Below are positions 54,201-64,000 of a DNA stretch of 64,000 bases, piece by piece (position 1 is the first letter of the stretch; each line of letters begins with the position of its first letter). The notes beneath the pieces are model-generated. The model ran no database searches and was not told the origin of the DNA. It was given only the letters and a program-made list of their open reading frames with translations. Source of the DNA: Tubiluchus corallicola (Eukaryota > Priapulida > Priapulimorpha > Priapulimorphida > Tubiluchidae); the NCBI GenBank assembly GCA_030141605.1, contig JAQGDQ010000283.1, positions 236,321 through 300,320 on the forward strand, in the 5' to 3' direction. A program made the translations under genes and the position numbers.

Positions 54201-57200
54201 CACGAGTTAAGAATAAAAAATTCTCTAAAATATTGAAAACTACAATAGCTTATTTTAAATCAAAGCTTAGATTAAATAATAATTACCTCGGATACTCAAA
54301 TTTCGTTAAACTTTCAAAGCTAAGCACGGCTCAGTGAATCTACTAAGATTGGCAGCGGCGTCTTTTTGTCACATTCGCTCGGCCGACAAATAGAAGGGGC
54401 GGTAACCATGATCATGAACTGCTGTGTTAGTTTCATGACGTCATATGATGTAAAGCCCCTTTTCGTGACATCACGTGTTTAAGCAGTACTATAACAAAGT
54501 TTAGGAAATGTCCATATTCTTCGACTGTAACACTTATGTAAATGTGCTTGACGTGCAAGGGAAGATGCCTGCCATTGGACAAACTGTGGGGTTAGTTTCT
54601 GACGTAAACAATAGCCGTGTTCGTTTGCCGTTAATCGACTTTCTAAACTAATTATTAAAATATAAGGAACAATTGTTAACTTTTATAGGCAAAGAAATGT
54701 ATGTTTTTGACAGTAAATTAAAATGAGATTGAGTCTAAACAATCGTCCGGTCTTCCTGTAATTTTAAAAGTAAATTTACTAATGCAATGCTATTATGTGG
54801 AAAAAGAAAAGGTATTAATGTGATGCAAACTGTACACACCGTTGTAAGAATTACAGTGATTTCTTATGATACTGAGTCCAATAAATTAACAATAGCAAAA
54901 AATTATTCACTGATTTAAATTATTCCAAGTTTTGCTTGTATTAGCATGAACTAAAATTGTGAAATTCACTACTCTTTGCATTTCTGGTTTTTTAACCATT
55001 TCTTTGATTGGCTGTTGAAAACTTTCAGTACTGGCAGTGAAAATAAAGAAAAGTGATTATAGAAAATTTAATGTGATGTGGTATGCACACTAAATATTGT
55101 TTCACAAACGTTTCATTTTAAGCACATTTGGGCACTTTTCCAAGAAAAATATATATCTTTTCAAGACTTTTAATAAAGAGCTTTTAATAATATCGATCAC
55201 ACACCACTGGCTGACTGACCTTTTTATATCTTTCCACTAAAGTTTGGCAAGCAGAAGTCAGTAAGTCAGTAAGTATTTTCAAGGAATATAGTAAACTATA
55301 TTAGTCATATTTAAAACACATTTTTATAACAAAATAGGTAAAAGTAAATCATCATCATTTTCATCTCTATTGTTGACCTCATAAAACCTGCTTTAAGGTG
55401 CTATTTTATTGCATATTAACTGGATGAGTGGAATTATAATAGAGTAGTGGGCTGACAGAATACTCACAAGGAGGTGATGAGTGCTGCAATTCATCGACTG
55501 AGTTCCAAATTAATAGGGTTCTGCAAAAGTGTAACAACTGCATTAGGAAATTTGGAAGTTCCACTGTACTTCAGCTGACTATTATATAGCAATACACAAT
55601 AAACGCCAATATAAACAAATAAACAAACAATGACGCTGAACAAAAATTTATTTGTGCATTCTGTAAAGATATTTGGAAGATCAGTTTCCGAATCGTTGAA
55701 TGTTTCAATGCATTATATATTATGAAATAATGGGGACAGTTAAATGGTAACAATTATAGTGGCTGAAATGCTTCTTATGTAAAGAGCTAATATCCAAAAA
55801 TCATAAACTCTGTGTGTCTTATAACTCCTTATGTTGATTTTTGTTACACATATACTTATTTCTAAACGGATCCAACAACTTAATTGATGTTTGTTAACAT
55901 CCATTTTAAAAAGTGCACTTGCAGCAATTTTATAATGGCAAACTTGTCATATTGAGTGAAAATAGAAACATTCCCTTCCATTTGATGCATTTTCGTGAAA
56001 CCATAAAGTTAATGTTTCAGTAAGTGCCATAAAGTCTAATGCATTAAATTAAACACCCAACCTACTACATCTCATTACTGCTTGTGTGGAATTGAGCAGG
56101 GAATTGGTCGTGTTATATGGATATAGTCAATGCATTTTGTTACATAATTCTTCAATTTGCCTTGTGCATTTGAAATTCAGACACAACTGTGGGTTTAGCT
56201 TTTGCCAACTGGCAAGTGTAATACGTGTGTTAATCTGCTAACAGTAATATTATACGTTCTTTTTTATTTGTGTTTTGTAGAGATCGTCAAAGCTTACGAA
56301 GTTTTATTCTCCACCTGCTCTGATAGACTTTAGTAACACTTCACCTTCAAAGACTGAAACGGCTACTTCCAGTAATGATACAGTGTGCGAATCTATTTCA
56401 AAAGTTGCTTCTGATGAGACGGCTCCGAAATGTACAACTACCGTGCAGTCATCATCGGCTTTTGAGAAGTCATTTCAACTACCTACACAGTGCAGCACAC
56501 GAACAGTAGAGGGTACCGCACCTGTTTACTATAGTAGTCCAGCCATCGAATATTCACCCACAAAACCTCCATGCACATCAAAGTCTGTGCCGACGACTAG
56601 TGGTCTATATTATTCATCACCGGATTCTTTGACTAACCAAACACCTCGTTATTACAGTGTTCCAGAAAGAGTGTCAGAAGACATAGAAGAATCCGAACCT
56701 GTGTCTCAATCTTATGCTTTATCGTCTTCATTTTCGTCAACATTGGCAAAGTCTTTCCAGGAAAGAAATTCCACCAATTCTTCACAAAATGTTTCACCCT
56801 CTGCTTTCAACCAGTTGAGAGTTAGCAATAGTGCAAATTTATTGCCGGATAACGTTTCTTTGCGATCTGATGACTCGCACTCTCTACAGAATGGTGGCAT
56901 TTCTACAGAAGATTTTGGTAGCTTTTCAACGGGTAATACTAATAGTCCTGCTGATAACACAGAGACTTGTACACCAAAAGACTTGCCGCGGTGTGGCAGT
57001 CAACCAGCATTCGACATATCACATGATCTAAACTCAAATGAACCAAATTTGTTAATCAGTATACCAAAGAGGGCTAAAAGTGAAGAACATCGGACAGTTG
57101 TTACTCATACTAGTACGGAAAATGTTTCTGTAAAGGCGAAAATTGCTAGTGATGTTTCAAATTCCTCTCAGAAAAAGGAAAATGATTCCTGCATGCCAAA

Positions 57201-58758
57201 TAATTCCTTACATAATTTCACTGTAGACAGTGATACATTATCACTTGTTACTGGCAGGCCGGTAGACAGAAGCATTGTGACCAAATTTAATCCATCGCAT
57301 GGAATAAATGCACTGTCTCGCATAGTGCCACCATCTGTGCGTACAGGAGTGTCTGAACAGGTGGAACGTAGGACATCGAATAATGACTATAACCAAGTGC
57401 TCAATCTGCCAGACAACAATCGAATTAATCTGTTGGTAAATAATTCAGATAAGTCTGTTCAGAATGCAGAGGAAGATTTACAGAAAGAAATACCCTCTAT
57501 GAAGCCTGCCAGACCAAGTGAACCACCTCAAACAGAACAAACCGAAACAGAGAACCTTATTACCATGACAACTACAGCACTTTCCAGTCGACCAGACTTT
57601 AGCCCTACCAAGCTGGCTGCAGATGGTGGCTGGATGTCTTCCTCTGGTCAGTTAGTGTCTTTACAGACAAATGCAAAAGAACTTGCTTATGAAGCAAAGG
57701 CTAAAGCACATCTTCAGCCCAGAATAATGCCATCTGAGAATCGTCATCATAATTTGCCTAATCCTCAGGCATCTTCTGAATGGCATGGCTCGCCTGGCCT
57801 ACCACCCCGTATGCCAATAAAGCCTGCAAGCCACACTACAAGTATTGCACCTCGAGGCAACTTGCTAGACAGTCTTCCAAATGTGGAACTTCCTCGTTTT
57901 GTAGATCCATTTGACACGAGTCAGGCTAGATTACCAGCTTTCGTTGACAGAAGTCTGCACGCATCAATTACTGCTCCAGCTAAGCCTACTCCTGCACCAC
58001 CACCACCTCAGCATCGTATCGAACCCATGGTTCAAGATGGAATTCAGGTCAGCTCTACGCATTACTTTCTGTTACCATCTAAGCCTGAGAAAAAAAGTCT
58101 CCCACACGATTACCTTAACTTAGAAACGTTTGACAGAAAGTTGCCTGTAAAAACAACTGCTGAAGTTAAGCCATTTCTTGTTGATTTATCAAAATCATTC
58201 CCTACCACAACTGTTCAGTCAACCTTTGTAGACCATTGGTCAGTTCTCACTGGTTATCAACCAGTACGACAGATTAATCAACCAGTAGCCACTGTACCTC
58301 CAGCCACCATACGTCAATCATTTGGTTATAGTCAACCAGCAATGCTAACTGGCTCTCATCCAAATATATCATCTTTATCACACATACCTTTGTTACCGGA
58401 GCCAGCTGTTCCAGTGGTAACTAAACAAACACCTCCTGTTAAAAACCTCTTACCATACAATGCCGAAAGCATGCATCCTCAGCTTGCTCAACTTACACCC
58501 CCAAACAGAAACAATCCTCAAGAGTTCATAGAAGAAGTCCAGAAGCAGGTGCATGGTGTCACTATGGAGGAGTGCCATGCAGCACTGAGTCATTGTCACT
58601 GGAACCCTGAGGAAGCTATTAAACATTTGAAAGTGGAGCAGTTGTTCAGATTAGGTGTAACCACTCGTGGCCATTGTGAACGCTTGTTAAAGTCGTTAAA
58701 ATGGAATCTAGAATTGGCAGGCGAGGTTTTGGAAGATGAGTATGCACATAAGACTTGA
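39299..58758 (+). CDS. Ack: ACK / TNK2-type activated Cdc42-associated tyrosine kinase
   Basis: A non-receptor tyrosine kinase bound by GTP-Cdc42, linked to clathrin endocytosis and receptor traffic. Thirteen coding exons: 39299-39409, 41381-41518, 47898-48086, 48488-48640, 49418-49603, 49711-49802, 50758-50884, 51342-51488, 52197-52291, 52810-53001, 53480-53553, 54026-54165 and 56281-58758. All joins keep frame and give 1373 residues. SAM-like helical domain 1-80. Kinase about 120-380: glycine loop [13 protein letters not shown] Lys152, HRDLATRN with Asp246, DFG Asp264, activation-loop Tyr278, WCAPESLK. SH3 about 382-440. CRIB 448-466 ([15 protein letters not shown]). Clathrin box LIDF at 562-565. 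Proline-rich stretch near 1114-1125. Mig6-homology segment from 1138 ([10 protein letters not shown]). UBA about 1303-1373. All key catalytic residues are present. The 2.5-kb last exon is partly duplicated at 61540-64000. Confidence 0.97.
42202..42255. repeat. 25-bp tandem duplication in ACK intron
   Basis: The unit CTACCACCGCAAAGCTACAT + TTCCA occurs twice head to tail (42202-42226 and 42227-42251) plus four bases of a third copy. The copies look identical. Confidence 0.95.
46597..46873 (+). mobile_element. GIY-YIG endonuclease fragment of a retroelement (Penelope-like or similar)
   Basis: From 46787 one frame reads [20 protein letters not shown], the characteristic opening of the GIY-YIG endonuclease of Penelope-like and related retroelements (Y-x-I/F-x-C-x-x-C plus YIGQT). 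It stops at TGA 46871-46873. The preceding 65 codons (46597-46791) lie one base out of register and resemble the linker before such domains. A frameshift, early stop and lack of a visible RT show a dead fragment. Its host element class is inferred. Confidence 0.6.
51588..51615. repeat. (CA)n(TA)n microsatellite
   Basis: About nine CA units followed by about six TA units in the ACK intron after the last kinase exon. Confidence 0.9.
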
Positions 58759-63695: not shown

Positions 63696-64000
63696 CGGCT
63701 TTTGAGAAGTCATTTCAACTACCTACACAGTGCAGCACACGAACAGTAGAGGGTACCGCACCTGTTTACTATAGTAGTCCAGCCATCGAATATTCACCCA
63801 CAAAACCTCCATGCACATCAAAGTCTGTGCCGACGACTAGTGGTCTATATTATTCATCACCGGATTCTTTGACTAACCAAACACCTCGTTATTACAGTGT
63901 TCCAGAAAGAGTGTCAGAAGACATAGAAGAATCCGAACCTGTGTCTCAATCTTATGCTTTATCGTCTTCATTTTCGTCAACATTGGCAAAGTCTTTCCAG
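63691..64000 (+). pseudogene. Direct partial copy of ACK last exon (continues past window)
   Basis: 63691-64000 repeats 56451-56760 in the same orientation (offset 7240), covering about ACK residues 606-708. It begins immediately where the inverted arm ends, sharing ATCAT at 63691-63695 with both sources. The frame remains open to the window edge. It lacks the splice acceptor and the first 170 bases of the exon, so it cannot be a normal exon here. Confidence 0.93.

Follow-up and report, generated by a model that had tools for sequence, protein, structure and literature searches.

Structure of the contig end

We analysed a stretch of 64,000 bases from the priapulid Tubiluchus corallicola (hereafter the window; bases 236321-300320 of contig C307, JAQGDQ010000283.1, which is 300,320 bp long) and found that the 3' end of an ACK-like kinase gene recurs at the contig end, where forward sequence is followed by an inverted copy of its middle part and then by the beginning of a second forward copy. 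Judged from the assembled sequence, and with an interior control limited to the window, the terminal 2.5 kb (61540-64000) probably do not represent genomic order but derive from a chimeric molecule or read whose tail lengthened the contig at its end.

A repeat search and base-by-base comparison gave forward sequence from 56451 to 61539, then inverted sequence from 59337 back to 57182, then forward sequence again from 56451. This bore out to the base the order and coordinates proposed in an earlier sequence-only reading of the window, and its idea of two template switches holds. The two arms (57182-59337 and 61540-63695) are 2156 nt each, are 100% complementary with 0 differences and lie 2202 nt apart, with both arm ends sharp and a mismatch directly outside. 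The direct copy (56451-56760 and 63691-64000) extends over 310 nt at an offset of 7240 with 0 mismatches, the first mismatching bases on its left side being 56449 and 56450. Across the whole product (61540-64000) 0 substitutions were found over 2461 bases, corresponding to a divergence below approximately 0.12% (rule of three, our own arithmetic). A perfect inverted repeat of 2156 bp is not chance, and the zero differences speak for a very recent event or an artefact without telling the two apart. Besides the arms, the window contained no further inverted pair of at least 500 bp at at least 97.5% identity. The last ACK exon was the source of most of the copied sequence, and the segments were as follows.

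56281..58758, plus strand: last coding exon of the ACK-like kinase gene; 825 codons; likely acceptor AG at 56279-56280; stop TGA
56451..57181, plus strand: segment B, forward; its initial 310 bases are repeated at the contig end
57182..59337, plus strand: segment C, forward arm; 1577 bp of exon including the stop and 579 bp 3' of the stop
59338..61539, plus strand: segment D, loop between the arms; one full-identity place in the assembly
61539..61540, no strand: joint 1, forward 61539 to inverted 59337
61540..63695, minus strand: inverted copy of segment C; 2156 bp, 0 differences
63691..63695, no strand: joint 2, inverted 57182 to forward 56451; ATCAT, 5-bp microhomology
63691..64000, plus strand: forward sequence resumed, a copy of 56451-56760 truncated where contig C307 ends

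The two joints

At joint 2, product bases 63691-63695 (ATCAT) fit both templates, and at least five shared bases were reached in 0.7% of 200,000 random registers within the window. Agreement extends to 10 of the 12 bases leading up to the joint (TGCAG and ATCAT, separated by two mismatches); this level was reached in 0.03% of 300,000 random registers and the same running score in 0.11%, the 12-base length having been picked after looking. At joint 1 the product fits the arm template from its first base and not earlier, and microhomology is not measurable there because it would lie in the forward sequence past 61539. No long inverted repeat was found within approximately 300 bp of joints 1 and 2 on the known side or sides. 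The longest exact inverted match was 9 nt at each, and control pairs of 600 x 300 bases had a longest match of 8-10 nt in 171 of 200 cases (at joint 2 the compared stretches were 601 x 601, a little above the control size). Distances of 2202 bp and 731 bp separate the turning points; one turns back and the second jumps ahead. A misjoin of the assembly graph at a repeat shared at joint 2 is unlikely, as just 5 bp are shared.

Copy number in the assembly

Position 64000 of the window is the last base of C307. The assembly searched comprised 343,548,820 bases in 2344 contigs; the searches scored best candidates only and skipped common words, with all candidates scored for segment C, segment D, 55800-57300 and the arm of contig C520 described below. 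Segment C was found in two places, both in C307 (2 of 2 candidates scored). Segment D had a single place at 100% identity and its last 24 bases had one place with up to one mismatch allowed; neither search returned an alternative continuation past 61539 in any other contig. The stretch 55800-57300 gave one full copy, a terminal match of 317 bp and the arm's own end. Within this stretch, segment B thus has one full copy plus the 317-bp terminal match, and the flanking segments were not found twice in direct orientation.

The sequence-only reading had predicted that a real rearrangement would continue forward through another ACK 3' end, so that 57182-59337 would exist three times. The 343.5-Mb assembly holds two places and no third was found, and just 310 bp of the resumed copy precede the contig end. 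Two origins had been offered, an amplification or fold-back chimera and a genuine duplication-triplication/inversion-duplication (DUP-TRP/INV-DUP). The first is the origin we favour, apart from a simple fold-back, which does not agree with the 2202-bp loop and the 731-bp jump; the second did not pass its own copy-number test in the assembly. An inverted middle part between forward copies is present (the third part is just 310 bp and ends before segment C), as is microhomology at joint 2, whereas neither a triplicated middle (collapse of a third copy being possible) nor duplicated flanks were seen.

Segment D also carries the relic of a dispersed repeat (60860-61461) with 25 further matches at 69-84% on other contigs. 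A frame at 60853-61032, which gave no Pfam match, resembles part of a retrotransposon reverse transcriptase.

Comparison with other contig ends

We sampled 20 contig starts (10 kb each) and nine contig ends (six of 8 kb, three of 6 kb) representing 256,003 known bases, two of the stretches containing 2500 and 7497 N. The contigs were chosen by number, not randomly; C306, C308 and the start of C307 are among them. With a threshold of at least 500 bp and at least 97.5% identity, which was set after seeing the data, a local inverted pair was present in three of the 29 stretches (C60 start, C400 end, C520 end), and in 3/3 of these pairs the outer arm was flush with the terminal base of the contig. 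The interior control, consisting of window positions 1-56450 (56,450 bases), contained no such pair. Two pairs below the threshold were left out of the count, at the start of C140 (96.8%, not flush) and at the start of C800 (77%, flush). The pair at C140 (L007 1003-3169 / 7817-10000) has a loop of approximately 4.6 kb and reaches the end of the sampled stretch.

The end of C400, a contig picked without knowledge of its content, carries an 800-bp inverted copy (L026 3512-4311 / 7201-8000) that is identical at 799 of 800 bases, with a loop of 2889 bp and an outer arm that reaches the last base of the contig (227772 of 227772). The remaining matches to this arm were approximately 100 bp or shorter among the best 40 of 73 candidates. 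BLAST reported the arm as 1020 bp at 97.6% in an alignment that overruns it; comparison along the diagonal gives 800 bp and 1 mismatch. The pair at the end of C520 (L028 5590-6358 / 7232-8000) is 98.8% identical and flush with the end, and its arm belongs to a repeat family (23 matches in 21 candidates), 13 matches outside C520 covering positions 1-738 at 89-92%. The pair at the start of C60 (L005 1-2342 / 4927-7272) is 97.9% identical with 43 differences and flush with the start; of the 673 bp used as query, the first half belongs to a dispersed repeat (best 40 of 393 candidates). This pair adjoins an array of approximately 46-bp repeats. C60 and C520 were dropped as like cases, being ambiguous by copy number, which leaves C400 as the sole clean one.

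Tandem arrays were flush with five other ends (the starts of C260, C306, C640 and C700 and the end of C20), which suggests a long-read assembly. Inverted pairs flush with an end can be real repeats that stop the assembler or the product of a chimeric molecule that extends the end. C400 and C307 would fit chimeric extension better, as their sequence is mostly single-copy and their loops, at 2-3 kb, should be bridged by long reads.

Origin of the terminal copies

Among the findings that support a chimeric origin of the terminal 2.5 kb, the end of the window is the end of the contig, segment C was found twice in the assembly, and C400 has a similar terminal inverted copy. According to the mechanism we propose, a growing 3' end would have copied the forward strand up to 61539, re-annealed at 59337 on nearby displaced DNA and copied back to 57182. 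A second switch at the 5-bp ATCAT would then have moved it to 56451, with forward copying continuing until the molecule or the usable coverage ended. We infer that these switches took place in vitro, during amplification or library preparation, and not in the germ line.

This geometry agrees with the behaviour of displaced 3' ends during multiple displacement amplification (MDA). Among MDA chimeras from Escherichia coli, 406 of 475 were inverted, 337 of these 406 joined segments less than 10 kb apart, and 93.5% of the 337 had complementary bases, the order being reversed about half the time; approximately one chimeric joint arose per 22 kb (Lasken and Stockwell, 2007; PMC1855051). The present case resembles them in its inverted segment less than 10 kb away (2202 bp and 731 bp), its short complementarity at joint 2 (5 bp, compared to at least 2 bp in that study; not measurable at joint 1) and its new template lying upstream or downstream of the switch. 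It differs in that the published chimeras are single joints in short E. coli reads, whereas here two successive joints stand in an assembled animal contig for whose DNA amplification is undocumented. Successive switches within one molecule are described for amplified tardigrade DNA in the cited part of PMC13265396.

According to the sections of the Pacasus paper drawn on here (PMC6218980), amplified DNA yielded an assembly with false inverted duplications, and palindromes occurred in 45.8% and 11.8% of reads in two amplified sets compared to 0.5% in an unamplified set. The likeness lies in the assembled inverted duplications, which disappeared in that study once palindromic reads were split; the difference is that reads and a control were available there and the assembly alone is considered here. 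False inverted-repeat reads also arise without amplification, at 0.18% to 7.33% in the ligation-based nanopore sets covered by the cited part of PMC13141652.

Several points weigh against a chimeric tail. The 2461 extra bases are error-free, so the tail is not raw low-accuracy sequence; no other contig gives a different continuation past 61539; real repeats that stop assembly also yield flush ends; and real two-switch rearrangements leave the same joints. Among the comparison ends, the C60 pair is less clear, with arms at 97.9% and partly made of a dispersed repeat, and may be a real repeat. The C520 pair is ambiguous and may likewise be a real repeat, though its two local copies resemble one another more than they do the 13 other copies.

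The alternative deserving most consideration is a genuine small DUP-TRP/INV-DUP in which replication restarted twice (microhomology-mediated break-induced replication or fork stalling and template switching), an origin we regard as possible but unlikely. It would comprise a duplicated 56451-57181, a triplicated and inverted 57182-59337 and a duplicated 59338-61539; the third forward copy would be missing from the assembly because the assembler could not tell two identical 5-kb copies apart and ended the contig 310 bp in. An assembler may indeed break a contig inside an unresolved repeated segment, the copies are error-free, and joint 1 is contradicted by no other contig. The order, the microhomology and the near-homology at joint 2 also match known cases as tabulated in PMC4352052. 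In Table 1 of that paper, which covers DUP-TRP/INV-DUP at PLP1, 14 of 16 Jct2 joints have 0-5 nt and two lie at Alu elements, and one triplicated piece is just 254 bp. Those cases share with ours a forward-inverted-forward order from two joints, the second usually with short microhomology; unlike ours, they extend from 145 kb to approximately 4 Mb in the cited part of the paper and have their first joint in long inverted repeats, whereas here the structure covers approximately 5 kb, no inverted repeat was seen and the third copy was not found. A second small example, CNV-B at RTA3 of Candida parapsilosis, has a very small DUP-TRP/INV-DUP-like order that was confirmed by MinION; according to the cited sections of that study (PMC9600344), it is an amplified yeast repeat, likened by its authors to origin-dependent inverted-repeat amplification (ODIRA), whereas ours is a single event seen in the assembly alone. 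Against the genuine origin stand the missing third copy, the position exactly at the contig end, the comparable inverted copy ending a second contig (C400) and the lack of a long inverted repeat at the joints, the longest match (9 nt) being as in controls. We hold only tentatively the proposal of a real and very recent rearrangement, approximately 5 kb in size, in which two microhomology-guided switches took place at an invertebrate ACK 3' end with no long inverted repeat involved.

An ODIRA-type inverted triplication, in which a replication fork errs at short inverted repeats and the inverted segment contains an origin, would give forward-inverted-forward order plus flanking duplications after later rearrangement, as outlined in the cited part of PMC10766186, where joints are described as lying at 5-6 bp inverted repeats 40-80 bp apart. 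The turning points here (2202 and 731 bp) are too far apart, both joints would need later rearrangement and the third copy is likewise not found, which makes this origin very improbable, and it was rejected.

Perfect inverted copies without amplification could also come from a plain fold-back read (a missed hairpin adapter, or the second strand read after the first) that was joined in assembly. Simple fold-back reads have little or no loop and a single turn; the 2202-bp loop and the second turn, which jumps 731 bp ahead with 5-bp microhomology, led us to reject this highly doubtful origin.

Least probable of all is the reverse insertion of an ACK 3' end by retrocopying or transposition: the arm consists of intronless exon and 3' sequence, but neither a poly(A) tail nor a target-site duplication was seen at the arm ends, no correctly oriented poly(A) tail stands at 59337/61540, and the adjoining forward copy of 56451-56760 would be left unexplained, so this too was rejected.

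Should the structure be an artefact, inverted copies at contig ends should be left out of counts of gene duplications and structural variants in this assembly, which would be cleaned by trimming such terminal copies. Should it be a true rearrangement, it would provide a kilobase-scale example of a type familiar chiefly from human disease, compact enough that a single read could capture the entire structure, both switch points included. The last ACK exon would then remain intact, and a 2.2-kb perfect inverted copy downstream could pair with a read-through transcript.

The ACK-like kinase gene and other features of the window

Nine plus-strand frames upstream of the last exon were scanned. Five of them (between 48488 and 51530) match successive parts of a tyrosine kinase domain, and a frame at 52793-53092 matches GTPase_binding (6.9e-15). 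A frame at 52149-52292 has a weak SH3 match (0.0063) below the cut-off, and frames 47889-48104 and 54010-54168 gave no domain match. The last exon (56281-58758) has a weak UBA match below the Pfam cut-off. We take the order kinase, SH3, GTPase-binding and UBA to be that of ACK. The genes and their introns indicate that the locus is animal. Since the first copy of the last exon, its likely acceptor site and its stop are all intact, and eight AATAAA/ATTAAA signals (59347-61510) lie upstream of joint 1, the ACK reading frame should be unharmed whichever origin applies. Beginning 170 bp into the exon and lacking its acceptor, the resumed copy would not be a working exon.

Scans of the window for tRNAs and Rfam families gave nothing, and 56451-57351 had no match in a phage collection. 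Two frames in 36936-37659, with no Pfam match at 0.01, resemble fragments of a non-LTR reverse transcriptase. A dispersed repeat of approximately 320 bp (54169-54496) is 84-90% identical to the sampled contig-end stretches L009, L014, L019 and L020, and at 23637-24198 two 281-bp copies that differ at 4 positions form a head-to-tail tandem duplication. Two long minus-strand frames were also present: one of 952 codons (6793-9651) with three domains of the family M1 aminopeptidase, and one of 1037 codons (32698-35811) with approximately eight immunoglobulin domains and a fibronectin type III domain.

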